Position numbers and translations under genes: made by a program. Positions 1,898 through 38,558 of a stretch of 39,099 bases of DNA are shown here, piece by piece. A model generated the notes under the pieces. That model worked only from the letters and a program-made list of their open reading frames with translations. It was not told the origin of the DNA and searched no databases. Each line of letters starts with the position of its first letter. Position 1 is the stretch's first letter. This stretch comes from a virus. The DNA lies in IMG/VR virus record IMGVR_UViG_3300035660_000034, positions 1-39,099 of that record; one strand, 5' to 3'.

Positions 1898-2749
1898 TCA
1901 TATCAATTCTACCCCGAATTTATCGGTTTTTTGTTTCTCGCATTGTGCATTAGGTTTATCTTCGGCATCATCTGGTTCTTCGCCCCGCAACGACTTCGCC
2001 ATCGGAGAGTTCCCGAATCCCATGGATTCGAGTTGCGCGAGGTCGTCCTGCACCGAGGACTGGGCCGGCACCATGGGCAAAACTGGATGGCGCCGTTCCC
2101 AGGTCCGGACCGCGGCATGCCAGTTCTTCATCGGGTTTTTACCGATGAGCCAGCCTTTGGATTCGTAGAAGTCCCGAAACATCTGCGCGTCAACCGCGTT
2201 TTTTCGTTCCAAGCAGTAGGCTTTTATTTCTTCGAGATTTGGTTTTTTGAAGACAGCACTCCCCTTGGGGGGAGCTTTAATTTTAGGCAGTTTTAAAATT
2301 AAAGCGGGGGGGCAGTTGTTGGCAAGGGGCAAGGGGCAAGGGGCAAAGGGCAAAGGGCAAGGGGCAACGGCGGGACTAACATGTCTGGACTTGTCTGGAC
2401 TTGTCGGAGACATATTTCCTTCATAAACTGAGAGCCTGTTGCGACTTAGGTACTTTTGGACACCGCCGTCAGCATGGCCTTTCCAATCGTGAATGACGAG
2501 GCGGACTTGTTCGGACTTGTCGAGCCACCGACAGTCAGTAAGGGCGGCGATCAGTGTGGTGGCGTCCTTGTCCCAACCGATACCCCGCGCGATGTCGGCG
2601 TCGGTAAACCTGCCGATGTCCCCCCTGGGGGTATATTTAGCTGCCCAATGCCAGAGGGCTTCAAGAATACCCACGGCTTGGTACTTGGGAATTTTGAGTA
2701 CATCCATCAAGGCGAGAGTTTTGGGGTGTTCTGGAGTTCCCCTCTTCAT
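1898..2749 (-). CDS. Replication initiator / replisome organiser-like protein
   Basis: A 283-residue protein likely to bind the phage origin and recruit the host helicase. The N-terminus (MKRGTPEHPKTLALMD, then LEALWHWAAKYTPRGDIGRF and a GWD segment) and the LVIHDWKGHAD motif match winged-helix phage replication proteins. The C-terminus has FRDFYESKGWLIGKNPMKNW, typical of such proteins. The middle is a low-complexity Pro/Leu-rich linker encoded by copy A of the composite repeat (2232-2417), with ACAAGTCC iterons inside the gene as in lambda O. The ATG at 2747-2749 has GGGAGGT upstream. Longer in-frame readings are rejected because they run through the endonuclease gene's 3' end. Confidence 0.8.
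   Translation of the reverse strand: MKRGTPEHPKTLALMDVLKIPKYQAVGILEALWHWAAKYTPRGDIGRFTDADIARGIGWDKDATTLIAALTDCRWLDKSEQVRLVIHDWKGHADGGVQKYLSRNRLSVYEGNMSPTSPDKSRHVSPAVAPCPLPFAPCPLPLANNCPPALILKLPKIKAPPKGSAVFKKPNLEEIKAYCLERKNAVDAQMFRDFYESKGWLIGKNPMKNWHAAVRTWERRHPVLPMVPAQSSVQDDLAQLESMGFGNSPMAKSLRGEEPDDAEDKPNAQCEKQKTDKFGVELI
2232..2417 (-). repeat. Composite origin-like repeat, copy A (inside the initiator gene)
   Basis: Read on the minus strand: two ACAAGTCC iterons, a run of CCCCTTG/CCCTTTG heptamers, a C-tract, then a perfect 12-bp inverted repeat GCTTTAATTTTA / TAAAATTAAAGC with an 8-nt loop, then a short C-tract. Two further ACAAGTCC copies lie at about 2505-2522. Copy B (9707-9909) is nearly identical in the opposite orientation and has one more 21-nt iteron unit. 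Iterons plus an AT-rich palindrome inside an initiator gene resemble a lambdoid origin. Confidence 0.75.
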
Positions 2750-4361: not shown

Positions 4362-5219
4362 CTATCCCAGCGGGACCTGTTCGTCCCCGGCGCCCCACTC
4401 CTTATCGAATCTCTTTTTCAACTCGGCGTCCAGAGTCAGATTATCCGGAACGTTCGCCAACCTTTGCGTAAGCGTTTCTCCTGCTGATAGTTTTCGTTCT
4501 TCGGCTTTCCATTCGGCCTCCTGGGCTTCCTCGATACTTATGGCTTGGTCCAGAGCCGGCGAGAGTTGAAGCATCTTGCAGATAATGCGAATCGGTTTGG
4601 ATTTTGCCATGGCTTCCCAACCGCCCACGGCCTGCCAGGGGCTGAACTTGCCTTTTTTCTCGGCCATGTTCATCCGGCGCCGTTCTTCGATTTCCTCGAA
4701 CGTCATCACGTGGAACACCGGAGGGCCACTCTTTAGGTTGCACAGTGCCCAAACATACGTAACCTGCGCGTCTTTTTTGAATTTTGGTTTATGCCTCAAG
4801 AACGGCGTTGTCCCGTATTCAAATTCAAACTCATCTCCCGCCGTCACGATACCAGCCGTGAACGATGCCACCCGGTCGCTCATGTATGCCAGGTGCATCA
4901 GACCGCGATAGCCGACTTGATAGCAGACCTTGCCTTCGCGCGGGATCAGATAGGCATGGCCCAAATTCTTTTCAAGGCTTAGCCCCACGATTGCCGCATT
5001 CACGGCGGCCACGCAGAGACTGGTTCTGTCGAGTTCGAGTAGATATTGATTGTCGTTGCAGACGTTGATGAGGTTCTGAATGAATTTGGCCACGGCATCG
5101 TCTGACCCCAGTATGACCCGAAAGCGAGTCATCCATTCAGGAGTGAAAGTGGCTTTAATGGCGCTTGCGATGACATTCGGGCTGGGCCTCCAGGTTTCGT
5201 CAGGCCACGTCGTCGTCAC
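4362..5219 (-). CDS. recT: RecT-family single-strand annealing protein
   Basis: A 285-residue protein that coats and anneals single-stranded DNA in phage recombination. RecT signatures are clear: LSLEKNLGHAYLIPREGKV, then QVGYRGLMHLAYMSD and FEFEYGTTPFLRHKP, followed by YVWALC and FSPWQAVGGWEAMAKS-type segments. It pairs functionally with the YqaJ exonuclease at 8374-9267, although several genes lie between. The start is GTG at 5217-5219 with AGGAGG 7 bases upstream. The last 11 codons are a copy of a segment from the exonuclease gene (35 identical bases), so the natural C-terminus has been replaced or extended. Confidence 0.93.
   Translation of the reverse strand: MTTTWPDETWRPSPNVIASAIKATFTPEWMTRFRVILGSDDAVAKFIQNLINVCNDNQYLLELDRTSLCVAAVNAAIVGLSLEKNLGHAYLIPREGKVCYQVGYRGLMHLAYMSDRVASFTAGIVTAGDEFEFEYGTTPFLRHKPKFKKDAQVTYVWALCNLKSGPPVFHVMTFEEIEERRRMNMAEKKGKFSPWQAVGGWEAMAKSKPIRIICKMLQLSPALDQAISIEEAQEAEWKAEERKLSAGETLTQRLANVPDNLTLDAELKKRFDKEWGAGDEQVPLG
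4363..4397. repeat. 35-nt direct repeat, copy in recT
   Basis: Identical over 35 bases to 8882-8916 and read in the same frame (GAGDEQVPLG) in both genes. Here it forms the end of recT and supplies its TAG stop. In the exonuclease gene it continues into the conserved YYLQCQHN segment, so the exonuclease copy is probably the source. Confidence 0.9.
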
Positions 5220-5241
5220 GGTCAACCTCCTCTTGTTCGGC
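5220..5241 (+). other. Possible half attC-like site upstream of recT
   Basis: GGTCAACC at 5220-5227 and GTTCGGC at 5235-5241, separated by 7 bases. They resemble the right half of the attC-like sites. No matching left half is found nearby. It lies between the stop of the Cys-rich gene and the recT start and includes the recT ribosome binding site. Weak evidence. Confidence 0.25.
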
Positions 5242-5250
5242 TTGATGCTT

Positions 5251-6003
5251 CTAGCCCGCGCATCCAGTGCGTCCTTCCGCCGACGCCTTGCGTTCAGCCG
5301 CAGCGCGGTTGCGTGCGCAGGTCTTGGAATCCACCGGGTAGTGCAAGTCTCCATCTTTGGGGGACACGTTTACACCGTGTGCCGAGTCCCACAGTATGCG
5401 CACCACCCGCACTTGTAACGGTGGCAGGTATCCGACCCAGTGCGCTCCGCAGTTACAGTACCAAGAGACGTGTTCCAGCGAACTGGCGTCAGCCGGTCGC
5501 GTTGGTTGTTGAGTTTGAGCGTCATTGGCGGCTGACTCCCGCCGCTGAGTTCCGCCGTTGGAACGACGCGCCATGTCCCCGTCAACAACCACCTCCTGCG
5601 TTGGCGTGAGGTTTCCGGCCCAGCCGGAGAAACACGCCAGCACAGGAATCCCCGCTCGCTCTACCGCGTCCATTGCCGCCCGGCGCGGCGGCGAGTCGAA
5701 TCCTTCCGGCAGTTGTGCGTCCATCGGCACGACAATTTTGCAATCCCATATCTTGTACTTCATCGCCAGCGGCGTCATGCAGCCACCGTCCCCTCCGCAT
5801 TCCTCGCAGTCTGGGCCGCACTTGCGGCGCGCGGCGGGCACACATGTCCGCGTGCAGTTGTCGCACGGCATCAGGTCGGGCGCTTCGCATCCGCACGATT
5901 CGTTACACAGTCCAGTTGCGCCCACGCGCTTCAGGTGTTCCCCCACGACGTCTTGGACGGTGGCGTTGGTTGCCGAGTTCGGAGGCTGTTGGTCGCTGGT
6001 CAT
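5251..6003 (-). CDS. Cys-rich hypothetical protein, 250 aa
   Basis: Unrecognised, but its segments look like a conserved phage family. A Cys cluster at about residues 33-75 (GLCNESCGCEA, PCDNCTRTC, KCGPDCEECGGDGGC) probably binds two or more zinc ions. It is followed by an ordered domain with IVVPMDAQLPEGFDSPPRRA and GIPVLACFSGWAGN. The C-terminal third has YCNCGAHW and is polar. The ATG at 6001-6003 follows GGAGAGAG and overlaps the upstream gene's stop (CCATGA). It is directly upstream of recT in the operon. Function unknown. Confidence 0.75.
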   Translation of the reverse strand: MTSDQQPPNSATNATVQDVVGEHLKRVGATGLCNESCGCEAPDLMPCDNCTRTCVPAARRKCGPDCEECGGDGGCMTPLAMKYKIWDCKIVVPMDAQLPEGFDSPPRRAAMDAVERAGIPVLACFSGWAGNLTPTQEVVVDGDMARRSNGGTQRRESAANDAQTQQPTRPADASSLEHVSWYCNCGAHWVGYLPPLQVRVVRILWDSAHGVNVSPKDGDLHYPVDSKTCARNRAAAERKASAEGRTGCAG

Positions 6004-6263: not shown

Positions 6264-6500
6264 CTAAGCGTCGCACACGCCGGGCTTGGGGGTTATGGTG
6301 TCCACCTCCTGCCTCCTTCCGGATTGCCGGAAAGTTTTAATTCTCATTAATTTATTAATGTGAAATAGTGCAGACCGAGCAGCTGAGATTGTATAATTAT
6401 TGAATCCCCCGTTTTCTATTTCAGGTTGATGTAGAGCTCCTATATATTCCAAAACCTGAACTGTATTTTTAAAAGAAAGTATGGGGTCTTTTAGTCTCAT
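6264..6500 (-). CDS. Hypothetical protein, 78 aa
   Basis: Unrecognised small protein with a helix LSFKNTVQVLEYIGALHQPE, a polar turn and a second helix SAARSALFHINKLMRI. The ATG at 6498-6500 has GGAGAGGAG upstream and overlaps the stop of the Maf-like gene (ATGA), so it is translationally coupled to it. By eye this gene and the Maf-like gene are richer in A and T than their neighbours, suggesting they entered the operon together. Confidence 0.7.
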   Translation of the reverse strand: MRLKDPILSFKNTVQVLEYIGALHQPEIENGGFNNYTISAARSALFHINKLMRIKTFRQSGRRQEVDTITPKPGVCDA

Positions 6501-8377
6501 GATTTCTCCTCTCCAGGTTTGAAATCCGCCCAGAACTCCATCAACCTTTTCCGCATCTTCGGCCACATGCTTTTAAGTGCGGCCAATTTATCTGTGTGCA
6601 ATGAAGCCTCTTGATAGAAATCTTGAAGCAAATAATCAAAAACGCCTCGCCCGTGAAAACCTATAAAGTCATCGAATGCCGGACGATTGAGTATGCAATC
6701 AGCCAAACTCGGTAACCAATACCGGGATTCTGAATGGAACGGCGGCGTGTCTTTCCATCCTCCTCCTAAGCATTCCCACTCCAAAGATGAAACTCGGTTC
6801 CCGGTATTTTTTATCTTCGCCAGTCCGCACAAATTGTTTACTGACAGTACGGGATTTCTCTTCACCCATTCCTCGAATTCCAGAAGATATGTAACGAACG
6901 CCGGCCGCGTAGGATGTTGTTTTCCGTCATTCCCCAGCACCGAGGATTCCCATTTTACGGCGGCCGCAGACTCTCCAGTCAAATTGCGATAGAGCTTTTG
7001 CGTCTCCTCCGGCATGCCCTCGCAGTGAGTCTTTGTGCCCTTGAAAGCGAAATCGAATCCAAATAGGTTGAGTTCGCTGAATCCCATAAACTTCGCGAGT
7101 TCACATGCGGTCCCACCCACAAACGGCATTCTCTCCATCGTCTCCATGTTATGACAGGCCACCAAAGTTGGAGGCCAAATCCAATAAACCCAGTCAGCCG
7201 GACGGTATTTCCCCCAGTTGGGGTGTGCGTTCCCGGCCACAACGAAACCTTGTTTTGGATTCGGCGTCCGGTCTCCCTGGGTTGCCATCTCAAAGCAATC
7301 GAGTTCGCTGTCAACACAAACCGTTGACATGGGGACAAGCCCATTTTTTAATAGAAACGGGACCGCCGTATCAACCGCGATTATGAAAGCCCGGTCTGGA
7401 ATAAGCTTTGCGCTTTCTTCCAATGTCGGACCTGAACCGCAAATGCAAACTGACCCGCGATACCTGTCCTTTAATTTTCCAACGTGATTGTCCCACTGGC
7501 CGTCGCTGAAATTTTTGATCAGGTTTCTCGTCCATTCATCTCGTTTGATATTCAGGGTAACTGTGTAACTGCGTTCGGCGGTGAAGGTGTTGAAGACATA
7601 TAGACTGAGTTCCTCATTTATTTTGGACAACGCAATGGCCGGAAGCGTGGCCTTGATTGAGATTACATTCAAGCATGGTTGCCCAACAAAGAGAGCCTTC
7701 AACTGTTTTCGTATTGTGGAAGGTGATTTGTCGCCGATGATGAAATACGCGCGCCCGTCAGTTAAAATTCTAGTCAACTTGCGGGCATTCATGGCCGCCA
7801 GGAAAATAGGGGCTTCGGGTTCAATAACCAGTAGCCGCGAGGAGTGATGCAGTTTGGAAAGGATTGTCTCGGCCAGATACCCACAACCGAAGCCGAATAG
7901 GACGAAGAGTTGATTTCTGGGGAATTTATTATCCTTAAGAGTTTCCTCAGCCCACTCCGGCGGAGTCGCCTTGAGGCTCTCCGGGTTCACATGTTCAGTC
8001 AGGATGTTGGTCGGATAGCCGGGCGGATAACCTATGGTCAATACGGGATAACCTCCAACATTTTCTATTCGGACGGATTCAACGGCCAGGCGCGATTTAA
8101 AGGCATCAAATTTGCCATGGATTCGGCCAGTCTGAATCCCGGCATTCAGGAGTTCACAGTTTTTCATTTTGCGCATCTCCTGATTGTTTTGCAGCCAGTT
8201 CGAGCGATACATCGCGCTGCCGCACTTTTGGCAGCGCACGTTTGCCTTTGGGTGCGTCGGGCGCTTGCATTCGAGCATCCCGTCGCACCACGAGTTCCAG
8301 CATCGCCCAACTATGCGGTCCAGCGACACAGCGCCGGCCGCCACCATTTTGCTGGCGTCAGCAAAGCCGCGCGTCAT
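6497..8377 (-). CDS. Maf/DUF115-type glycosyltransferase-like protein with N-terminal zinc ribbon
   Basis: A 626-residue protein. Residues ~310-360 carry CICGSGPTLEESAKLI, then FIIAVDTAVPFLLKNG and STVCVDSE, the core of the MptE-like/DUF115 fold in motility accessory factors (Maf), which transfer nonulosonic sugars to flagellin. Residues ~155-215 (LFGFGCGYLAETIL, LLVIEPEAPIFLAAM) match the preceding Maf domain. Residues 26-52 hold Cys pairs (C26-x4-C31, C49-x2-C52) that look like a fused zinc ribbon; a second possible start at Met71 has AGGAG before it. The first ATG overlaps the exonuclease stop as ATGA. Target unknown: host surface, flagellin or virion proteins. Domain call fairly sure; role inferred. 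Confidence 0.85.
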   Translation of the reverse strand: MTRGFADASKMVAAGAVSLDRIVGRCWNSWCDGMLECKRPTHPKANVRCQKCGSAMYRSNWLQNNQEMRKMKNCELLNAGIQTGRIHGKFDAFKSRLAVESVRIENVGGYPVLTIGYPPGYPTNILTEHVNPESLKATPPEWAEETLKDNKFPRNQLFVLFGFGCGYLAETILSKLHHSSRLLVIEPEAPIFLAAMNARKLTRILTDGRAYFIIGDKSPSTIRKQLKALFVGQPCLNVISIKATLPAIALSKINEELSLYVFNTFTAERSYTVTLNIKRDEWTRNLIKNFSDGQWDNHVGKLKDRYRGSVCICGSGPTLEESAKLIPDRAFIIAVDTAVPFLLKNGLVPMSTVCVDSELDCFEMATQGDRTPNPKQGFVVAGNAHPNWGKYRPADWVYWIWPPTLVACHNMETMERMPFVGGTACELAKFMGFSELNLFGFDFAFKGTKTHCEGMPEETQKLYRNLTGESAAAVKWESSVLGNDGKQHPTRPAFVTYLLEFEEWVKRNPVLSVNNLCGLAKIKNTGNRVSSLEWECLGGGWKDTPPFHSESRYWLPSLADCILNRPAFDDFIGFHGRGVFDYLLQDFYQEASLHTDKLAALKSMWPKMRKRLMEFWADFKPGEEKS

Positions 8378-9267
8378 GTCGCATGCTCCTTATCTGGGAT
8401 GATGCAGAGGGCTTTACCGCGGCGCTCTATTATGCCACCATCAACCCTCCAGCCTTTACCTTCAGCCAGGGCCAGACGGATTCTGTTTTTCAGGTCCTCT
8501 AAATTGGCTTCTTCGGATTTGAAGTTTCCATAGGTAAGGATGGCCTGCCGGGCCAGCCAGTGATGCTCCGGTGGGACGATTACTCTGTCACCCTTGATAT
8601 TGCTATAGACCTTGATGAGCATGTGCTTCTTCTTCTCCTCGCAACTGCCAGCGAGGTCAGCCAGAAATTTCACCGCGGCCTCTTTTTCTGGACCTTGGGA
8701 CGCCAGGGCTTTTTTAATGGATTCGATTTTTCCCCAGGCCTGCCGAGCGGCCACCACGATTTGAATCTGGATTTTACGGTTTTCCTCAATTTGGTAAATC
8801 CGTAGGTCAGTACCCAATAGGACCACGAGGTCCCAATTTTGTTTATTCGTGACCAACATATTGTGCTGGCATTGGAGGTAATATCCCAGCGGGACCTGTT
8901 CGTCCCCGGCGCCCCAATGCCGTAATTGATGGAACCCTGCGAGTTTAAATTCTATCCCATACTCGTACTCGTCCGCGACCGCCCATCCATCGGGGTGACT
9001 GATCAGAAATTTATACGTTTCGTGGCGGTAAAGTTTATCGCCCTCCAGCCTCACGCGGAGGCCGGTCTTGAATTCATAGGCTGCGGCCAGGTCATCCTCC
9101 AGTAATTTGCCCAGCAGCATATTGATGGTCTGTGCGCGCGGCGGAAGCAAACCGAGTTTCCCGGCGATGACATCGTATTCGGTCTGGAATTCTGAGCATT
9201 CAAACGGCGGCAGAGCCGCTATCTGCGAGGCTCCGATACCGGTGAGATGGTCAGCGGATATGCTCAT
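8374..9267 (-). CDS. YqaJ-type viral recombinase exonuclease
   Basis: A 297-residue 5'-3' exonuclease of the YqaJ (lambda-Exo-like, PD-(D/E)XK) family, the partner of RecT in double-strand-break recombination. Motifs in order: GASQIAALPPFE near the N-terminus, GKLLEDDLAAAYE (first acidic residue), LISHPDGW (catalytic Asp), GIEFKLAG (the ExK motif), then YYLQCQHNMLVTN. Start is ATG at 9265-9267 with AAGGA upstream, overlapping the secreted-protein gene by 17 bases. The 35-nt segment 8882-8916 is shared with the end of recT. Confidence in family is high. Confidence 0.92.
   Translation of the reverse strand: MSISADHLTGIGASQIAALPPFECSEFQTEYDVIAGKLGLLPPRAQTINMLLGKLLEDDLAAAYEFKTGLRVRLEGDKLYRHETYKFLISHPDGWAVADEYEYGIEFKLAGFHQLRHWGAGDEQVPLGYYLQCQHNMLVTNKQNWDLVVLLGTDLRIYQIEENRKIQIQIVVAARQAWGKIESIKKALASQGPEKEAAVKFLADLAGSCEEKKKHMLIKVYSNIKGDRVIVPPEHHWLARQAILTYGNFKSEEANLEDLKNRIRLALAEGKGWRVDGGIIERRGKALCIIPDKEHAT
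8882..8916. repeat. 35-nt direct repeat, copy in the exonuclease gene
   Basis: Identical to 4363-4397 in recT, same orientation and frame. In this gene it lies between the ExK catalytic motif and the conserved YYLQCQHN segment. Confidence 0.9.
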
Positions 9268-9616
9268 TCTTAAATCCTTCGAGTATTCTTGAACTTGGCT
9301 CGATGCAAAGTTCGTCATGCAATAAAATCCAGAAGCATGTGACCTTCAGTGCGGCCGGGTCTTTTGCTTTAAGGGAATTCCTATTATCGAAAAACCAGTC
9401 GTAGGAAATGTCCTGGAGCCGGCGACCATCGCCAGTGGAGGGACAGGCGAGACGGGTTGTCGCCTGACTCCAGGACTCATATTCTGTATCGGGGATTTTG
9501 TTTTCGGCAAGCCAATTCTTGGCGTCTTGCAATAATTTGGGCCTGTACTCAAGCCAGAGATTCTCTTCTGATAGAAGAGAAAAGGAAAGGAATAACAGAA
9601 TCAAAGGTAGGTGCAT
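9251..9616 (-). CDS. Putative exported protein, 121 aa
   Basis: First gene of the leftward operon. It begins MHLPLILLFLSFSLLSEENL, a hydrophobic stretch that would act as a signal peptide or membrane anchor, then a soluble polar domain with several Trp and Cys residues (TTRLACPS, FFDNRNS, CFWILLHDELC). The ATG at 9614-9616 follows GGAGGG; the longer in-frame reading would enter repeat copy B. Not recognised. An early exported phage protein could alter the host envelope or block superinfection, but nothing in the sequence proves this. It overlaps the exonuclease start. Confidence 0.65.
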   Translation of the reverse strand: MHLPLILLFLSFSLLSEENLWLEYRPKLLQDAKNWLAENKIPDTEYESWSQATTRLACPSTGDGRRLQDISYDWFFDNRNSLKAKDPAALKVTCFWILLHDELCIEPSSRILEGFKNEHIR

Positions 9617-9650
9617 GCGTCCCTCCACGCAATTCCCGAGACCGAGAGGA

Positions 9651-9678
9651 ACCATACAATACTTTTTTGCTAAGGCAA
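9651..9678 (-). promoter_or_regulatory. Possible promoter for the leftward operon
   Basis: On the minus strand TTGCCT (9678-9673), a 16-base spacer, then TATGGT (9656-9651), about 35 bases before the ATG of the exported-protein gene. Each box matches the sigma-70 consensus at four of six positions. The stretch upstream is AT-rich. Position is sensible; motif quality is modest. Confidence 0.3.
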
Positions 9679-9706
9679 GGAAAAAATAAAAATTTTCCAT
9701 TGACAA

Positions 9707-9909
9707 ATATATCTCCGACAAGTCCAGACATGTCTCCGACAAGTCCAGACAAGTCCAGACATGTTAGTCCCGCCGTTGCCCTTTGCCCTTTGCCCCTTGC
9801 CCCTTGCCCCTTGCCCCTTGCCAACAACTGCCCCCCCGCTTTAATTTTAAAACTGCCTAAAATTAAAGCTCCCCCCCCCAAGGGGTGTGTTGTTTTCAAA
9901 AAACCAAAT
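9707..9909 (+). repeat. Composite origin-like repeat, copy B (divergent intergenic region)
   Basis: Same order as copy A but on the plus strand: three ACAAGTCC iterons within CTCCGACAAGTCCAGAC units, a tract of CCCTTTG and CCCCTTG heptamers, a C-tract, the same perfect 12-bp palindrome GCTTTAATTTTA / TAAAATTAAAGC at 9839-9870, and a C-rich end followed by TTTTCAAAAAACCAAAT. It lies between the divergent early and late operons and codes for no convincing protein. It could be a second origin, a regulatory array, or both. Confidence 0.75.
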
Positions 9910-9913
9910 TTTT

Positions 9914-9952
9914 GTCGTTGACAAAATTTGTCGGTGTTGTATGTTGAACACC
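9914..9952 (+). promoter_or_regulatory. Candidate late promoter with overlapping operator-like palindromes
   Basis: TTGACA at 9918-9923 is a perfect -35 box. With a 16-base spacer TATGTT (9940-9945) could be the -10 box, placing the transcript start at or next to the ATG at 9953. TTTTGTC gtt GACAAAA forms a palindrome over the -35 box, and GGTGTT (9933-9938) with AACACC (9947-9952) a second one over the start. Either could bind a repressor or activator. Confidence 0.45.
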
Positions 9953-10225
9953 ATGAAATCTCCCGTGGAACGTCTGCCAGCCACGGAAGTCCAGAACTGC
10001 CTGAGTGAGATCCAGGCATATCAGACAAACTCGCCGTCAGAAACAGTCTATAAATTAACCCTAATGGCTATCGTGACGGAACTCAATAAAGGCAGGTCGT
10101 CCAGTTTCCCGGCTCTCATCAAATCAATCCTGACGGGTAAACTCCCACAACTAGGCGGTTCCCGCCGGCAATCCCCCGACATCAGCAATCTTGCGCGCCA
10201 GGCGCAGAAGAAGGAGTCAGCATGA
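9953..10225 (+). CDS. First late-operon gene, hypothetical, 90 aa
   Basis: Unrecognised helical protein (ATEVQNCLSEIQAYQ, VYKLTLMAIVTELNKG), with a basic C-terminus SRRQSP...ARQAQKKESA. Its position and size would suit a small terminase subunit or a regulator, but no motif supports either. The ATG at 9953 has no ribosome binding site. An ATG at 9941 is in frame too but lies in the proposed -10 region. The stop overlaps the next start as ATGA. Confidence 0.65.
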   Translation: MKSPVERLPATEVQNCLSEIQAYQTNSPSETVYKLTLMAIVTELNKGRSSSFPALIKSILTGKLPQLGGSRRQSPDISNLARQAQKKESA

Positions 10226-10584
10226 ACAGATTTAATTCCGGCATCCTGATGCGCGATTATAATAACATCGCTATTGACGAAGCCACCGCAATGATATGCG
10301 AAGACAACAACACGCCAAACATATCTCCGATTTTGACTGTTTCTGACGTTCCCATTATCAAATTTGTGGCTCCCGCCAAGGCGCGCGCCATGGTGTTCAA
10401 GTCATCGCAGACATTGCGATATGGAGAGAACGCCACCCTTGACGGCAGCGCCACCGGCAAAGGCTACATGAAGGCCGCTGCGGCAACGATTACCCGCGTA
10501 CCAATCGGTCCGGCCGGAGTGCTCTACATGCGGGCCGACAGCACGGCCGGCGTCGTTGATTTCTACTTTGAACTTCTGACGTGA
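10222..10584 (+). CDS. Hypothetical protein, 120 aa
   Basis: Unrecognised. Mostly beta-type sequence (PILTVSDVPIIKFVAPAKAR, VPIGPAGVLYMRAD, VVDFYFELLT), which suggests a small structural or capsid-associated protein rather than an enzyme. AAGGAG lies just before the ATG, and the gene overlaps the preceding stop. Eight bases separate it from the small Cys gene. Function unknown. Confidence 0.7.
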   Translation: MNRFNSGILMRDYNNIAIDEATAMICEDNNTPNISPILTVSDVPIIKFVAPAKARAMVFKSSQTLRYGENATLDGSATGKGYMKAAAATITRVPIGPAGVLYMRADSTAGVVDFYFELLT

Positions 10585-10592
10585 GGTGAACC

Positions 10593-10763
10593 ATGGACGG
10601 CAAATGCAAGAAATGCGCGTTTTGGACGAAGATTGATGACGGAAAAGATAACGGATACTGTCGTCGCTTCCCTCCTGTTTTCCCATTCGGTTCGCCGTCA
10701 CTCCCAGGAAATCCAGTCACCGACGAGAAGTATGTCTGTGGAGAATTCAAGGAGAAGCCATGA
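10593..10763 (+). CDS. Small Cys-rich (zinc-ribbon-like) protein, 56 aa
   Basis: Begins MDGKCKKCAFWTKIDDGKDN and continues with YCRRFPP and YVCGEF. The four Cys residues (CxxC, YC, VC) could bind one zinc ion. Small proteins of this pattern are frequent in phage genomes but have no known role. GAGGTGA precedes the ATG. The stop overlaps the next start as ATGA, so it is part of the operon. Confidence 0.75.
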   Translation: MDGKCKKCAFWTKIDDGKDNGYCRRFPPVFPFGSPSLPGNPVTDEKYVCGEFKEKP

Positions 10764-11002
10764 TTGAATTTGGCGAGCTCTTTAAATCCTTCGGACCAGT
10801 TGCCGCCTTTCTTATTTTCTTTGTTTGGCGGGACGCCAAACGCGAGGACTCGCTGGTGATGAAACTCTCCGAGTTAGAGAAGGGCCGGGTGGACGACCTC
10901 AAGGGCGTAATTGCGGAAAATAGTTCCGCAATTACGGAAAATAGCTCCGCGTTGATGCGCGTGGCGGCAGTCATTGAAAACTGTAAGGAGAGAAACAGAT
11001 GA
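10760..11002 (+). CDS. Putative holin (BhlA/UviB-like), 80 aa
   Basis: One N-terminal membrane segment (FGPVAAFLIFFVW at about residues 11-23), followed at once by charged residues (RDAKRED) and a long amphipathic helix with repeated NSSA. This matches the layout of BhlA/UviB-type phage holin-like proteins, which permeabilise the membrane at lysis. It overlaps both neighbouring genes by four bases. A role as scaffold for an unknown lysis enzyme is possible. No endolysin is recognised nearby, so the lysis role is inferred from size, topology and position. Confidence 0.55.
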   Translation: MIEFGELFKSFGPVAAFLIFFVWRDAKREDSLVMKLSELEKGRVDDLKGVIAENSSAITENSSALMRVAAVIENCKERNR

Positions 11003-11289
11003 GCGACTTCAAGGAAACGAAGGAACTGGCAGTGGGGCTTCGCATTCTGGCCGTGAAGGCATACCAGGCAAAGAAAGAAAACCCAACCGCCAGTCCTCAG
11101 TCTTTGGTGAAGGCGCTTTTCGAGAAGGTTATGTCCGACCCCGTGGCGATCATTGCCATTGAGTCCGCCGCGGGCAACATCGGGGATGTGGTGCTGGAGT
11201 TCAAAACGGCGAACGCCACGCAGCGTCTCCAGTTACTCGCGTTTGCATTTGCCGAGGGGCTGAAGGCGCTCGACGAGATTCAGCCGTGA
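10999..11289 (+). CDS. Hypothetical helical protein, 96 aa
   Basis: All-helical protein (LAVGLRILAVKAYQAKKENP, SLVKALFEKVMSD, TQRLQLLAFAFAEGLKALDE). No known motif. It starts within the last codons of the holin-like gene (AGGAGAG upstream) and overlaps the next gene by four bases. The location inside the lysis-type cluster hints at a lysis or head role; this is only positional. Confidence 0.7.
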   Translation: MSDFKETKELAVGLRILAVKAYQAKKENPTASPQSLVKALFEKVMSDPVAIIAIESAAGNIGDVVLEFKTANATQRLQLLAFAFAEGLKALDEIQP

Positions 11290-11531
11290 GTTGGATTGCG
11301 GTTGTGGTGGAGGCTTTGGGTCGCCTCCTCAAACTCATCTTCGGCATGGACAAGCCGGGGGAAACGGAGGTAGCCCATGAAAAGCCCAAGACTCCTGTTG
11401 ATAATCGCGGTGATGATATCCTGTTGGCTGAGCTTGGGTTGCGGCCTGACGCTGGGGCCAACGGTGGAGACGCGGTACGTAGTGATTCATCCGGGCCGGC
11501 CGCTGGAGGTGCTGGAAAATCAGACCATTGA
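11286..11531 (+). CDS. Small membrane protein overlapping a lipoprotein gene, 81 aa
   Basis: Starts with GTG overlapping the previous stop (GTGA). The N-terminus WIAVVVEALGRLLKLIFGM is an amphipathic membrane helix, and the rest is polar and probably disordered. From 11377 the lipoprotein gene is encoded in another frame inside it, an arrangement like Rz/Rz1 spanin pairs. However, it lacks the coiled coil expected of an Rz protein. The second half may simply be a by-product of the overlapping frame. Confidence 0.5.
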   Translation: MSWIAVVVEALGRLLKLIFGMDKPGETEVAHEKPKTPVDNRGDDILLAELGLRPDAGANGGDAVRSDSSGPAAGGAGKSDH

Positions 11532-11640
11532 TGGCCGGGTGCTTGATGGCAGCGGTGAGGCAGTCAAACAGGACATCGGCGGATGGGTAGCGATGCCGGC
11601 AGACCATTGGGAGGCGGTGAAGCGTCGGCTCGAAAAGTGA
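11377..11640 (+). CDS. Lipoprotein, candidate outer-membrane spanin-like protein, 87 aa
   Basis: Begins MKSPRLLLIIAVMISCWLSL and then GC: a signal peptide with an LSLGC lipobox, so the mature protein would be lipid-anchored at Cys22. The mature part is short (about 65 residues), with a conserved-looking end GWVAMPADHWEAVKRRLEK. Position among lysis genes and the overlap with 11286-11531 suggest an Rz1-type o-spanin, but the mature part lacks Pro richness. GGAGGT lies 6 bases before the ATG. The lipobox is clear; the spanin role is inference. Confidence 0.75.
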   Translation: MKSPRLLLIIAVMISCWLSLGCGLTLGPTVETRYVVIHPGRPLEVLENQTIDGRVLDGSGEAVKQDIGGWVAMPADHWEAVKRRLEK

Positions 11641-32200: not shown

Positions 32201-34406
32201 AAAGCTGATGTGGGACGACGGCGGACGCCGGGGACTGGAGAAGGCCGCCTCTTTTCATAACGCCGCTGAACGTGAATTCCTGGAGTTGGGGAGAAGCCTC
32301 ACTCCTCAGGAATGGAATACACTCATGCAGACGGAGCCGGAACGCGCCGCCCGCATGTTGGTGACCGCCGGTTACGGCCCGGCGAAAGACCTTTCCGTAA
32401 AAGATTTGCTGCGCGCTTGGCATCCCGACGAAGTGGATTTTGCGGCAATCGCCAAACGCTCCGGGAAATCTATCGAAGAAGTGCGGCGCATGTCTATCCC
32501 TGAGCGCCTGACGTACTATCAAGAGGCGTATGCGAAAGTCTGGGATGAGAAGCCGGAAGTGCTGCTGGCGACCAACCTGGCGGCGGCGGCGAAAGGTGTT
32601 CAGCGCCACGAGTTCGTATCGGGAATTAAGCGCTTATTCGCCAAGCCGATGAAATTAACGCCCGCCAGCGAGGCCGAATTAGACCTCATAAAAAACGCGA
32701 AGCGGGTCAGAAAATGGCTTCAGGGTGGCAAAGAAGACGCCGGAGTGGTGTCCGACATCCTGTCGCTATGGCGCGACAAGTTCCGAACCGTCGCCCCCGG
32801 CTGGCTTCCGGGCGAAGCGCTAGACGAAAGCCTCGCGGGTTACGTGGTGAAGGAGGAGACCTTCCGGCAGGCCAGTCAATACATGCGCTCGATGCACGAC
32901 ATGACGTGGGCGAAAGGATTTTTTGCCGATCTCAACATGGTCGTAAATCTTGGGAAGTCCATGCAACTGTCATGGACTGGTTCCATTATCAGGGACGTAC
33001 TCGGGAATAAATACTTACGCGCCCTTAATGGCGGCATCCATCCCGAGACCACCATGCAGTCCCCGGCGCTGTTGAAAATAATGATGTCGGGCGGTAACGC
33101 GGAAAAGCTGAAGGACATATCAATTACGGTCGGCGGGAAACGGATGGCCGGAACTGAATTCCATAACATGGCGACCCACTACGGGCTAATGGGAACGACT
33201 GAAGTTTTTGAACTCACTGAGCGCATCGAGCAATCTGCTCGCAGGGGCGCCACCGTCCGGATGGCGCAGAACATTTCCCAGGGAATCCCGACCGGCGCCG
33301 CAATGGCGGCGGGATTAGGATTGGCGGGCGTGCCCTTTGCGCCTCTGGTTATTCCGCTCGCGGTGGCCGCCGCCGCCAAAGGCAAGGTCATCAATCTCCA
33401 GAAGGCGCGCGAGTTCATGTCGGAACTGGATAGGCTATCCATGTTCCACGCTCGTTTGGCGCATGGCGACACCCCGGCAGAGGCCGTCAACAAAACCATC
33501 TCCACCCTCTACGACTACTCCACCGTGTCGCCGTTCGTGGAGATGACGCGCCGGACGGGGTTGATACCCTTCGCCACGTGGTCGAGCAAAAATATCCCGG
33601 CGGCGATCGAGCTCCTGTTTACGCGGCCCGGAACCTACGCGGCATTCCTGCACGCGAAGCGCGCGGCCGAGACCGGCATCCCCGGTATGCGCCCGGAAGA
33701 CGTACCCGAATATATCAGGAAGCAATGGAATGTGATCATCGGTAGGAAACCAGACGGCACAGTGATATACCGGACGCTGGAGAATGTGCTTCCGTCCGCT
33801 GATATAGCCGCGGTGGAAGACCCGATCCGCTTCATGGCGCAGGCCCTGGGCCCACTGCCGCAGGCGTTGCTGGCCATGGGGAATTACGATCTCTACAACC
33901 GGAAGGTGATTGAGGAATTCAACGGGCAATATGACATCATGCGCCTGCCGGGATTGCCAGACATGCCCGTCCCTGTGCGGACGAAGAAGGGCATCGAGAT
34001 AATGATCGGCCGGCCAATGACCATGCTGGAACAGTACGCGAAATTAAGTGATGAGACTGCGCCTGGCGCCGACGAGAAAAAAATATCGAGTTCCAATTCT
34101 ATCATCAATGCTCTGACAGGTATCTCACCTGCCACGTATAGCCAGCGCGGCGAGTGGCTACGGCAGGTGGGCCGGGAGGAGAAGGAGATATCCGCCATGC
34201 GGCAGGCCGCCACCAGATTCAGGCGGCGAGGTCGGCCAGACCTGGAGGCGGACTTGTTGCAAAAGGCTGATGAGCGGGAAGCCGCGCTTCGGGGAGGACG
34301 CTTGGCTCCGGCATACCAAGAGTCTAGGCGATTACGGAATATCCGGAGTACTGAGACCAAGCAGCGCCGGAAAGAACTGCGTGAATCCAACTACGAAGTG
34401 GAGTGA
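29220..34406 (+). CDS. Giant internal virion / ejection protein, 1728 aa
   Basis: The largest gene and last of the late operon, in the place of T7 gp16 or P22 gp16-like ejection proteins. No lysozyme or peptidase motif is seen. The middle is helical and polar with many Ala-rich segments. Residues ~1358-1387 (GAAMAAGLGLAGVPFAPLVI, PLAVAAAAKG) are hydrophobic and could insert into the host membrane. The C-terminus is basic (RRRGRPDLEADLLQKADERE). It probably leaves the head with the DNA and helps form the channel through the host envelope. It ends 37 bases from the convergent minus-strand gene. Confidence 0.75.
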   Translation: MTPFPSSIPEQSGEGWDEKIAQTPPDRGVLGTAYDWTLGSAPARGLFWVLDLLGRPVRTFLHTGSLGQAAESVWNAEAAASTQDLLDDVNRATGWNMGHWGTPDGQADWGDVGDFFVNLGVGIGTDPLSLGGPGLLKSGMSKLGIRTVSESRAALEAANGAYHTTRETLLAAGITDEAAARAAGKLNEWRLAGISDEVRRGGGAALADLAEPLRVARHEKNALAKQLEELESVKLTPDGAVQYNKTAQALSESETSLGNLRGQANLATQSGNIETADTLARHLNEQIAAGGRAAPGAFYTTLDDVLPNWRDVEKLAKSTTSEGEFLDWMRNTPPPPGWRTPMMDDYRKAIDDAQKKLVKAKIEVWFGRTDDLGNVIIEGVQDRLGRLGLGSTLAERVRLGQQGWLNFYKHPLASTPAATFSGGDAGLKIIKWTGDGYEIARKTLGSTSYGRWLGESIDKARRFFINPNTSESIAGMKQVSDAVGLNAVRDMSASIRHVHDILAENKFTEEMISDTLTVCGYTKVNGAMASAARQAAMESISAAAEKRGLGGIKAAEIVDETARVFTETNDRILAFTNQHGVRLETLGEFKRKCLEAARNQLDDVDKKLAESKHAKQELDRAAVAYSDAVKGDVSDVMSAQRAAAEATEIQAHNFRADARAATIDGWSITDKKTGSRAAKAVDKLAAYDAGYNRSRWSDVPPGAAPDTQSVSRYMAEWWEHNALGLSYKDRLLLIKGGPDALPVLRRFLPPELRESLNRYERLNLDISSFSPAGMRLKGTFVDTEEFRLSARRESFAKYLKDPNAVDAGVKPAFEYMKGQIESLADNGATVPGVGHQKVPMVNRNAAIGKPWGLTREEWNVRVAKRAADAGARGVPDVAVTEAEHYQIVKTAAAEGHVIPPRVLKSYADMPDIPQLTELSEKNLLNTKPGEARSAVDALADARLKYKAAAENVRLTGTFASAEKMAQYKKLVDDLENIVVNDPWHVTLRLSEDASKLMWDDGGRRGLEKAASFHNAAEREFLELGRSLTPQEWNTLMQTEPERAARMLVTAGYGPAKDLSVKDLLRAWHPDEVDFAAIAKRSGKSIEEVRRMSIPERLTYYQEAYAKVWDEKPEVLLATNLAAAAKGVQRHEFVSGIKRLFAKPMKLTPASEAELDLIKNAKRVRKWLQGGKEDAGVVSDILSLWRDKFRTVAPGWLPGEALDESLAGYVVKEETFRQASQYMRSMHDMTWAKGFFADLNMVVNLGKSMQLSWTGSIIRDVLGNKYLRALNGGIHPETTMQSPALLKIMMSGGNAEKLKDISITVGGKRMAGTEFHNMATHYGLMGTTEVFELTERIEQSARRGATVRMAQNISQGIPTGAAMAAGLGLAGVPFAPLVIPLAVAAAAKGKVINLQKAREFMSELDRLSMFHARLAHGDTPAEAVNKTISTLYDYSTVSPFVEMTRRTGLIPFATWSSKNIPAAIELLFTRPGTYAAFLHAKRAAETGIPGMRPEDVPEYIRKQWNVIIGRKPDGTVIYRTLENVLPSADIAAVEDPIRFMAQALGPLPQALLAMGNYDLYNRKVIEEFNGQYDIMRLPGLPDMPVPVRTKKGIEIMIGRPMTMLEQYAKLSDETAPGADEKKISSSNSIINALTGISPATYSQRGEWLRQVGREEKEISAMRQAATRFRRRGRPDLEADLLQKADEREAALRGGRLAPAYQESRRLRNIRSTETKQRRKELRESNYEVE

Positions 34407-34468: not shown

Positions 34469-35133
34469 GGCCGCGCTTGACGCGCCAAACGTAGAAGAAC
34501 GTCGCGGAAGGCAACGGGCGTGGCATTGCGTATTCTGGTTTTATCTTTGCCCCCGACCATTGCCAGTATGCCAATTCGCCTGGCCCTTTCGTATCCGTGC
34601 TTTGCCAGTGCCTTCGGGTCAATGCGCTGTTCCCCAATGGTCCAATCCAGCTCTAACGGTTTTTGCCCTCCGATGTATAGAAGCCATGTGCCTTTTCGTG
34701 CAATGTGGCCATAGTTTCCTTGCTCGACGTAGCAGGTGTAAGCGTGGCTTACACTGCTTATTTTTATCCACCCGTTGCCACGCCCTGGCTTTTGTATTCC
34801 GAAGTGTCCCCATGCGTGCGAGTCGGCAGGGTGTTCCAGTACTCCGCCAAAATCACGAATTGATTTCAGCGCAGACTCAAAGCATCCGCCGTCGTCGCCC
34901 ATCTTGAACCGGTGCGGCTTCCTGGTGCTACCATGCCAAAACCTGCCCCACCGCTGGCACGGCGGATGCGCCACGACCGGATGCGGCCCACGGTACAACC
35001 GTGCGTCCCGCTTTATATCCCAAGGATCAACACCAGGCAATCCGAAATAGCAACCGTCCGTCTCCACGAATAGGGCTGCAACAGGCGCGAAAATCGTCGA
35101 ACAATTCGGTCGAGCCAATTCGCTATCGCTCAC
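34444..35133 (-). CDS. PPCQ-motif DNA cytosine-methyltransferase-like protein, 229 aa
   Basis: Contains AHPPCQRWGR (residues ~54-63), like catalytic motif IV of cytosine-C5 DNA methyltransferases (PPCQ, Cys nucleophile), and FGGVLEHPADSHAW, where motif VI (ENV) would be. The FxGxG SAM-binding motif at the N-terminus is not seen, so this may be a diverged or partial enzyme, or another family with a similar loop. The GTG start at 35131-35133 follows GGAGGT, all inside attC-like site 4, and overlaps the Mom-like gene by 11 bases. Last gene of the operon before the convergent late operon. Confidence 0.5.
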   Translation of the reverse strand: MSDSELARPNCSTIFAPVAALFVETDGCYFGLPGVDPWDIKRDARLYRGPHPVVAHPPCQRWGRFWHGSTRKPHRFKMGDDGGCFESALKSIRDFGGVLEHPADSHAWGHFGIQKPGRGNGWIKISSVSHAYTCYVEQGNYGHIARKGTWLLYIGGQKPLELDWTIGEQRIDPKALAKHGYERARRIGILAMVGGKDKTRIRNATPVAFRDVLLRLARQARPAQGEVRP

Positions 35134-35153
35134 GGCTCACCTCCGCGTTGGGC
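35096..35153 (+). other. attC-like recombination site (site 4)
   Basis: GTCGAAC (35096-35102) and GTTGGGC (35147-35153), the latter a canonical GTTRRRY. Spacers are AATTC and TCCGC. The inner box GGTCGAGCC pairs with GGCTCACC leaving one extra C on the left arm, as in known attC sites. It contains the stop of the Mom-like gene and the ribosome binding site and GTG start of the PPCQ gene. Confidence 0.65.
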
Positions 35154-35656
35154 CTACGAATCGCCAGCGCGAAACGGTGCTTGCTCACCCTTGGCCTTCG
35201 CTCGACAACGGCGTCCGCTGGCATGTTGCCCCGCCGTCCGTACTTCTGCCCGGTCCTCGCGTCGTAGTAGTCGCAACGTGGGGACTTGCGCTCATCATCC
35301 GTGCGACCATCCTCGCGCCAGTTGGCGGCCCGGTAAATCGTTCCCTTGTGTCCGGCGCTCGGATCGGCGTAGCTGACCAGGTTGCAGACATCCGGGCGGT
35401 GTTGCCTGATCCATTTCACGCTCTGCGCGATCAACCACGTTTCGGCGTTCTGCGGCACCTCGTCCAGCAGGTACAGCCGCGCAAGCTCCCATGTCTTTCC
35501 GCCGTAGCGGACATCGGACTCGCGGGGCGGGGCGGAGTAGATCACGCACCCTATCGGGCGCGTGTCTCGCAGCATCGCCAGCGCCAGCAGGACAATGGCC
35601 GGCCGCTTGTGCAGGTAGTGCGCCCTCACGAACCCGTCAACGGCGGTCACGCTCAC
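35123..35656 (-). CDS. Mom-like DNA-modification acyltransferase
   Basis: A 177-residue GNAT-fold protein resembling phage Mu Mom, which adds an acetamido-type group to adenine in DNA and protects it from restriction enzymes. Matching segments: TWELARLYLLDEVPQNAETW, LIAQSVKWIRQHRPDV, then LVSYADPSAGHKGTIYRAAN. The GTG at 35654-35656 has no good ribosome binding site, and the frame is open upstream without a usual start, so translation may depend on coupling or an activator, as Mu mom needs Com. It ends PNAEVSRER in attC-like site 4. Target base unproven. Confidence 0.8.
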   Translation of the reverse strand: MSVTAVDGFVRAHYLHKRPAIVLLALAMLRDTRPIGCVIYSAPPRESDVRYGGKTWELARLYLLDEVPQNAETWLIAQSVKWIRQHRPDVCNLVSYADPSAGHKGTIYRAANWREDGRTDDERKSPRCDYYDARTGQKYGRRGNMPADAVVERRPRVSKHRFALAIRRPNAEVSRER

Positions 35657-37450: not shown

Positions 37451-38043
37451 CATCGTCCCTCGCCGTACCTCACCTTGAACCACTCCGGGTTGGCCAAGCA
37501 CGCGCTCAGACCGCCCTTCAGTCCGGAGCTTGCCTTCCGCACCACTACTCCCTCGACATCCGGGTTACTCAGGCCGTGGATGTAGAGGTCCACCATGCCG
37601 GGATTCTGAATGGTCTCCGCCCATTCTATCCCGGAGGGTTTCAACGGCAGCCATGCGTGTTGCATGGTGTGCCCCAGCAACACCGAACGTTCCCCGAAGG
37701 GCGTCCGGCCCAGCCATTGCCCCTCGTACATCAGGATATCGAAGGCTATCAGCCGATGCTCACCGCCCTTCTTGCGAGGGCCAACCCATTCGCAGTCAAT
37801 GGCCAGCGGCAGGTCCGGCCAGCTCATCATCCGCCAGGCCTCCATCACTTCGGCAGGCATGGCCTTTGCCGCGGCGCCGCTGCGTTTAGCCTGCCAGACC
37901 CAACCGCCATCGCAGAGCCATCCGGTCCGGCGGTAGCCATCCCATTTCAGTTGCGCCAGCCACGTGCGCGCCGGCGCCCTGTCCAGCTCACGCAGAAAAT
38001 CCAGCGAGACTGGGCATGGATCGTCTGGCCAGTGGTAGATCAT
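37450..38043 (-). CDS. Minimal ATP-dependent DNA ligase (nucleotidyltransferase domain)
   Basis: A 197-residue protein with the ligase motifs: KWDGYR (33-38, the lysine that takes AMP), DCEW (83-86, motif III), EGVVVRK (164-170, motif IV) and WFKVRY (188-193, motif V). The usual C-terminal OB-fold domain with motif VI is absent, because the protein ends soon after motif V. It may need a partner, act on nicks poorly, or be a remnant. The ATG overlaps the WD40 stop (ATGA). Confidence 0.85.
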   Translation of the reverse strand: MIYHWPDDPCPVSLDFLRELDRAPARTWLAQLKWDGYRRTGWLCDGGWVWQAKRSGAAAKAMPAEVMEAWRMMSWPDLPLAIDCEWVGPRKKGGEHRLIAFDILMYEGQWLGRTPFGERSVLLGHTMQHAWLPLKPSGIEWAETIQNPGMVDLYIHGLSNPDVEGVVVRKASSGLKGGLSACLANPEWFKVRYGEGR

Positions 38044-38558
38044 TTGCGCACTTCCTTCCCGGTGCTCACGTCCCAGAGGCGGATGGTCCTGTCTCCACTT
38101 CCAGAAGCCAGCGTCCGGCCGTCAGGAGAGAAACTGACGGACCAGACCCAACCGTCATGCCCTTCGAATTTGCGCACTTCCTTCCCGGTGCTCACGTCCC
38201 AGAGGCGGATGGTCCTGTCATCACTTCCTGAAGCCAGCGTCCGGCCGTCAGGCGAGAAACTGACGGACGAGACCCAGGAGCTGTGCCCTTCGAATTTGCG
38301 CACTTCCTTCCCGGTGCTCACGTCCCAGAGGCGGATGGTCCTGTCTCCACTTCCAGAAGCCAGCGTCCGGCCGTCAGGAGAGAAACTGACGGACTGGACC
38401 CAACCGTCATGCCCTTCGAGTTTGCGCACTTCCTTCCCGGTGCTCACGTCCCAGAGGCGGATGGTCCCGTCATCACTTCCTGAAGCCAGCGTCCGGCCGT
38501 CGGGAGAGAAACTGACGGACGAGACCCTAGCATCTGCCGTCATCTGCTCTCGTGTCAT
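38040..38558 (-). CDS. WD40-repeat protein with four near-identical blades
   Basis: A 172-residue protein that is almost entirely WD40 repeats of 42 residues: VSFSPDGRTLASGS, TIRLWDVSTGKEVRK and EGH..WV, four times, the last ending right after GKEVRK. The differences lie at a few positions only: the residue before SVSF (S, Q, S, W), DD or GD after GS, G or R next, and DG or SS before WV. Such a propeller usually has seven blades, so four would need to assemble into oligomers. Start ATG 38556-38558 with AAGGAG upstream. Host-derived scaffold or decoy is a guess. Very unusual for a phage. Confidence 0.88.
   Translation of the reverse strand: MTREQMTADARVSSVSFSPDGRTLASGSDDGTIRLWDVSTGKEVRKLEGHDGWVQSVSFSPDGRTLASGSGDRTIRLWDVSTGKEVRKFEGHSSWVSSVSFSPDGRTLASGSDDRTIRLWDVSTGKEVRKFEGHDGWVWSVSFSPDGRTLASGSGDRTIRLWDVSTGKEVRK
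38043..38530. repeat. Tandem 126-nt repeats of the WD40 gene
   Basis: Nearly identical units begin at 38043, 38169, 38295 and 38421, each 126 nt (42 codons). Units 1 and 3 share silent and coding differences from units 2 and 4 (TCA GGA AGT GAT versus TCT GGA AGT GGA), so the array was built by duplicating a two-unit block. Copy number is probably unstable. Confidence 0.9.

Follow-up and report, generated by a model that had tools for sequence, protein, structure and literature searches.

A candidate replication origin within the initiator gene of a phage, with an inverted second copy between divergent gene blocks

Does the replication initiator gene of this phage carry, in its own code, the origin at which the initiator would act, and what could be the role of the inverted copy of the same repeats that stands several kilobases away? 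The stretch of DNA analysed here (the window) comprises an entire virus record, which is 39,099 bases long and is classed as linear. Leftward genes occupy the part between the left end and about 9.6 kb, rightward genes the part between 9.95 and 34.4 kb, and beyond 34.4 kb the genes are leftward again. The leftward block contains rep, recT and a gene for a YqaJ-type exonuclease, and the rightward block contains the terminase, portal and capsid genes. A gene is probably truncated by the left end of the record; one coding stretch is also present in two diverged copies, at 1-60 and 1608-1668. The first-pass annotation had placed a lambda-type origin at 2232-2417, within the initiator gene. The features of the leftward block that bear on this proposal are as follows.

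1898-2749, minus strand: replication initiator gene rep, 283 aa, ATG start, assigned by PHROG matches
2408-2749, minus strand: code of the Rep N-terminal domain, a probable winged helix and presumed iteron binder (relatives 47-56% identical)
2087-2266, minus strand: code of the Rep C-terminal domain (FKKPN...GWLIGKNPMKNWH), a presumed helicase or loader contact, with tblastn-confirmed relatives
2503-2520, minus strand: iteron pair 1, two copies of ACAAGTCC at 10-bp spacing, within the N-terminal domain code
2387-2404, minus strand: iteron pair 2, two copies of ACAAGTCC at 10-bp spacing, in the linker (gene nt 346-363)
2321-2367, minus strand: heptamer tract (TTGCCCC)6.7, 95% match, in the slot where relatives have 5- or 6-bp tandem tracts
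2274-2305, minus strand: AT-rich inverted repeat, candidate unwinding element, with two perfect arms of 12 bp (2274-2285 and 2294-2305) separated by 8 nt
4362-5354, minus strand: RecT single-strand annealing protein (PF03837, E 4e-26), between the two putative origin copies
8374-9318, minus strand: YqaJ/RecE-like exonuclease (PF09588, E 2e-16; phrog_434, E 7e-37), between the two copies

Residues 3-95 of Rep match phrog_9474 ("replication initiation protein", E 7e-23), and residues 162-221 match phrog_15768 (E 8e-22). The AF2 model of the N-terminal domain has a pLDDT of 91, and its fold matches are weak; they are winged helices, including the RepA_N initiators 4pt7, 4pql, 5kbj and 4pta, at Z scores of 4.2-5.0, below the level of a specific match. 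The C-terminal domain has no Pfam family, no sequence match in the PDB and no significant fold match, and Rep as a whole matched no family in Pfam, including PF06970 (RepA_N). Similarly, no sequence match of Rep to the lambda O and RepA_N models was detectable, the PHROG matches being to other families, and neither domain has a significant fold or sequence match to a characterised initiator. Among the other genes of the window, no helicase or loader gene was recognised, and the Rfam search gave no match. Since the scanned window proteins include no recognisable reverse transcriptase or invertase, template/variable repeats and programmed inversion are without support. Elsewhere in the window, three coding regions drew attention in their own right: a Mom-family protein (35123-35656, minus strand; PF25680, E 1e-24), possibly a DNA-modification gene; a 626-aa protein (6497-8377, minus strand) that has an MptE-like domain (PF01973, E 2e-20), matches Maf glycosyltransferase weakly and is unusually placed, within a phage recombination block; and a tandem repeat of a 126-bp unit (38042-38527; 3.9 copies, 91% match), which by eye resembles WD40 repeats on the minus strand (DRTIRLWDVSTGKE).

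In the window, ACAAGTCC occurs 8 times, compared with 0.78 expected, and counts of 8 or more were reached in 0 of 100 shuffles. Four sites lie on the coding strand of rep (2387, 2397, 2503 and 2513), three lie in the second copy described below, and the eighth is a single site at 34250. The first-pass annotation had counted four iterons in the gene, which agrees with the above, and two in the repeat, where three are found (9718, 9739 and 9749). In addition, two of the four iterons of the gene lie inside the interval 2232-2417, and the other pair lies outside it, 116 bp upstream, in the code of the N-terminal domain. The CCCCTTG heptamer tract was recovered as described, and the feature reported as a perfect 12-bp AT-rich palindrome does have perfect 12-bp arms, which an 8-nt spacer makes an inverted repeat and not a palindrome. 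In stability, the AT-rich stretch at 2273-2305 falls in the lowest 0.1% of the window's 30-mers, although it is short; over 50 or 100 bp, the stability at 2273 is unexceptional.

To what extent these repeats follow from the protein was assessed by synonymous recoding, in which the protein was kept and the codons were redrawn from phage usage (n = 5000). Four copies of ACAAGTCC arose in 0 of 5000 recodings (mean 0.18, maximum 3), the heptamer score was 34 compared with 18 in the best of the 5000, and the period-10 score was 14 compared with 12 in the best recoding. The 12-bp inverted repeat was absent from the 400 recodings scanned for such repeats. The repeat periods of 7 and 10 are, moreover, not multiples of three. 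Because shuffles and recodings fail to reproduce them, the iterons, the heptamer tract and the AT-rich inverted repeat reside at the DNA level and are not due to chance, which confirms the earlier claim of repeats in the replication gene. We infer that the linker peptide is mainly a carrier of DNA information.

The most unusual part of the arrangement, left unspelled in the first-pass annotation, is the inverted second copy, whose features are listed below.

9709-9909, plus strand: second copy of the rep linker, in inverted orientation and in a noncoding context, containing an additional 21-bp iteron unit
9718-9756, plus strand: three ACAAGTCC iterons (9718, 9739, 9749)
9776-9822, plus strand: heptamer tract
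9838-9869, plus strand: AT-rich inverted repeat
9662-9711, no strand assigned: AT-rich flank beside the iterons, with a stability in the lowest 0.03% of 50-mers in the window
9918-9945, plus strand: promoter-like site TTGACA-16-TATGTT, directed toward the rightward genes and away from the second copy

The second copy is 96% identical to the rep linker (E 1.7e-80 over 177 bp), with about 180 bp repeated, and it is located where the leftward and rightward gene blocks diverge, in the gap between them. It is unlikely to be an assembly artefact, given that substitutions and two indels distinguish the copies. In one relative, L153, the rep region is duplicated exactly and in tandem over 1.3 kb (9268-11550), and an N stands at the joint; this is probably an assembly error. 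The codons for FKKPN, which is conserved at the protein level in the family, are present in the second copy, and the rep gene is therefore its likely source. The promoter-like sequence was found once, with 1.0 expected by chance. The cumulative GC skew, which had been suggested as a check on the origin, does reach its minimum near the second copy (10506, about 0.6 kb away), but it was dropped as independent evidence because skew tracks gene direction, which flips there. In relatives, no convincing second copy was found within 10 kb (138 loci), and none was found in 19 near-complete viral records; because no examined relative has one, the argument for a role of the second copy comes from analogy and from the fact that it has been preserved. 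The second copy could be a further origin of the phage or its main one.

Based on the results presented above, a theta-type origin probably lies in the linker code of rep, and the derived inverted copy would act as a second origin or as a fork barrier; the in-gene origin itself is likely and is of a known kind. On the other hand, the intergenic copy alone could be the working origin, with the copy in rep serving autoregulation or persisting as an ancestral site without a role. This would suit the three iterons in one array there, the much stronger AT-rich flank, the adjoining promoter-like site and the nearby skew minimum, but relatives have their iterons in the gene without an intergenic copy, and the gene copy keeps its repeats beyond the needs of the protein, so we consider it unlikely. 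We also doubt that the intergenic copy is an operator at which bound Rep switches the divergent promoters, with no role as an origin: it does lie between divergent gene blocks, with the promoter-like site just to its right, yet the whole module was copied, including the heptamer tract and the AT-rich inverted repeat and not the iterons alone, and a promoter-like site of this kind is expected by chance. Improbable, finally, is that the inverted pair is a by-product of recombination, either a recent neutral duplication or arms that flip the 7-kb block. The 96% identity, the inverted orientation, the position flanking the recT and exonuclease block, and the polarity from gene to gap (the copy includes codons of the family-conserved F-K-K-P) would all fit such an event; however, the copy is placed at the sole functional gap between divergent blocks, a flip would split rep, and the boundaries of the copy coincide with those of the origin module.

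The putative in-gene origin layout is not confined to this phage. Through the C-terminal domain, tblastn-confirmed relatives were found in at least 568 viral-contig stretches and at least 120 genome stretches, and 80 of each kind were kept for comparison. When each locus is ranked by repeated 8-mers, the 240 bp that precede the C-terminal domain fall within the top 5% of that locus for 99 of 161 rep genes, where chance would give approximately 8 of 161. In 152 dereplicated linkers, the periods 10, 11 and 22 are enriched 10-14-fold and the period 20 is enriched 7-fold over windows of their own genomes; over synonymous recodings of the 152 rep linkers, the enrichment is 4.5-6.2-fold for periods 10, 11, 20 and 22 and 1.5-2-fold for periods 6, 12, 18 and 24. 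The iterons of this group are found about 80 bp before the domain, and their sequence differs member by member. A reading frame for a P-loop ATPase comes after rep in 30 of 124 loci, compared with 4 of 115 in which one comes before it. A search for relatives in viral contigs through the terminase or capsid protein found none. The layout recurs across many relatives with differing iteron sequences, and in-gene sites prove to be the rule among relatives of Rep, whereas the second copy is not.

Through the N-terminal domain, relatives of 47-56% identity were found at 13 loci, and the linkers of this group have repeats at 10-11 bp. GAC-N2/3-GTC sites at 10-11 bp spacing are present in the window and in L174, L175, L176 and L177, and they are rare elsewhere in each genome; in L173, GGC-NN-GCC is repeated at 10-bp spacing. 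Iteron pair 1 also has counterparts: L243 has the same pair at the corresponding position, and L176 has a similar one. Because the GAC..GTC motif was defined after viewing those sequences, an independent scan of viral contigs for GACAAGTC-NN-GACAAGTC was made, which returned 24 loci compared with approximately 20 by a very rough estimate of chance; they include the known L176 contig and L243, a new N-terminal-domain relative with the pair at the homologous place. One iteron core may recur across unrelated phage initiators. The exact 19-base iteron pair was not found in viral contigs. Also among the 24 loci, L225 and L240 (with a DnaT-like end, e.g., in L225), L237 and L247 contain genes that by eye resemble phage initiators with other types of domain, with GACAAGTC-type pairs and, in several, a hexamer tract after them.

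Short tandem tracts form the other part of the layout. A 6- or 7-bp tract follows the iterons in 9 of 12 N-terminal-group genes and is found in 1% of control windows; in the C-terminal group, 6-bp tracts are present in 24% (control, 0.4%) and 5-bp tracts in 7% (control, 0.2%). Where a hexamer tract stands alongside iterons, it lies between them and the C-terminal domain in 12 of 12 cases. The sequence and the peptide of the tract vary among relatives (PEPE, SVSV, HTHT, KDKD and ALAL in the initiator group), and so does the strand in L175, where the CCAGAG hexamer tract common in relatives is on the opposite strand (gene nt 389-409; GGCTCT, encoding ALALAL). The 6-bp tracts, at 1.5-2-fold above recodings, are mostly explicable by dipeptide linkers, but the strand switch in L175 hints at a DNA-level role, and the 5- and 7-bp tracts argue for one. 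It is conceivable, as a tentative proposal, that in-gene origins of this large group of phage initiators are bipartite, with helically phased iterons followed by a 5-, 6- or 7-bp tract whose period is kept and whose sequence, peptide and strand vary, and that the tract would be a strand-specific element for single-strand recognition or helicase loading, present in this phage as a heptamer version in two inverted origins. Such an element would be comparable in kind to the DnaA-trios or the DnaD recognition element, both of which PMC10201434 names. That all these repeats are low-complexity coding sequence or slippage without a role in replication is very hard to credit, for although linkers are often low in complexity and the 6-bp tracts of relatives are just 1.5-2-fold above recodings, none of the periods 7, 10 and 11 is divisible by 3, independent relatives also have the GAC..GTC core, and synonymous recoding, which fails to reproduce the repeats, rejects a protein-driven or low-complexity source.

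For the preferred reading of an in-gene origin with a derived inverted copy, we infer the following course of binding, unwinding and helicase loading. The N-terminal domain would bind the GACAAGTC sites on one face of the helix, as the 10-bp phasing suggests, and the bound complex would put strain on the neighbouring heptamer tract and on the AT-rich inverted repeat, so that these open. Recruitment of the replicative helicase by the C-terminal domain, directly or via a loader, would follow. An origin segment of about 180 bp would have been copied, inverted, into the gap between the divergent blocks, where it probably forms a second, possibly the principal, origin. Alternatively, the second copy may be an initiator-bound fork barrier, as proposed for SPP1 oriR, which would start recombination-dependent concatemer synthesis with the phage RecT and exonuclease.

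If this is true, origins could be read straight from thousands of uncultured phage genomes, by going from the initiator gene to the phased repeats of its linker. The GAC..GTC core common to relatives of one DNA-binding domain would offer a testable protein-site code, and the short-period tract beside the iterons would be a new sequence element of phage origins. In addition, the inverted second copy would provide a natural test of paired origins switching the replication mode in phages; the paired-origin mode switch in SPP1 is a model and not a settled fact.

By its layout, the window phage resembles lambda, the RepA_N plasmids and SPP1. In lambda ori, as here, the iterons lie between the codes of the N- and C-terminal domains of the initiator, followed in lambda by an A-rich stretch, and their position in the gene is nearly equal (annotated nt 349-433 of lambda O; nt 346-363 for the linker pair of the window); an AT-rich stretch, though short, also adjoins the iterons here (2273-2305). 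On the other hand, lambda has four 18-bp iterons, whereas the window has 8-10-bp sites in two pairs at 10-bp spacing, homology of Rep to O is not detectable, and the window has a second, inverted copy. The earlier proposal of a lambda-type origin accordingly stands for the in-gene layout of DNA-binding domain, iterons, low-stability tract and C-terminal domain, which relatives support, and is unsupported for homology to O; because Rep has no detectable sequence match to lambda O, "lambda-type" is an analogy.

In pSK41-type RepA_N plasmids, the N-terminal domain binds four Rep boxes central in rep, and the linker is origin-encoded (PMC5703833). The phage shares with them putative binding sites inside rep, and RepA_N structures are among the weak fold matches of its N-terminal domain; unlike them, it has no PF06970 sequence match, and the fold match is too weak for assignment. 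The phage initiators with the phrog_15768 C-terminal domain, e.g., that of Porphyromonas phage005b, where a DnaC-like loader gene adjoins the initiator gene, have the same C-terminal domain and in-gene repeats, but their N-terminal domains and iterons differ, and a second copy was not found in them. The inverted second copy and the heptamer tract are what set the present in-gene origin, as a candidate, apart.

The closest known arrangement appears to be that of SPP1, in which oriL lies inside the initiator gene 38 and oriR is noncoding, with similar repeats and an AT-rich element; according to one proposal, forks would stall at oriR when gp38 is bound there, and recombination-dependent replication would begin (PMC6316719, PMC3485210). 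Likewise, the window has two related copies, one within the initiator gene and one noncoding, a likeness at the sequence level between putative origins, and its genome also encodes an annealing protein and an exonuclease (here RecT and YqaJ), which may take part in a theta-to-sigma transition. The copies are inverted and 7.3 kb apart here, compared with a distance of 12-13 kb in SPP1. Because the inverted copy, with its three iterons, its stronger AT-rich flank and its position near the skew minimum, may be the main or a second origin, this phage would stand closer to SPP1 than to lambda.
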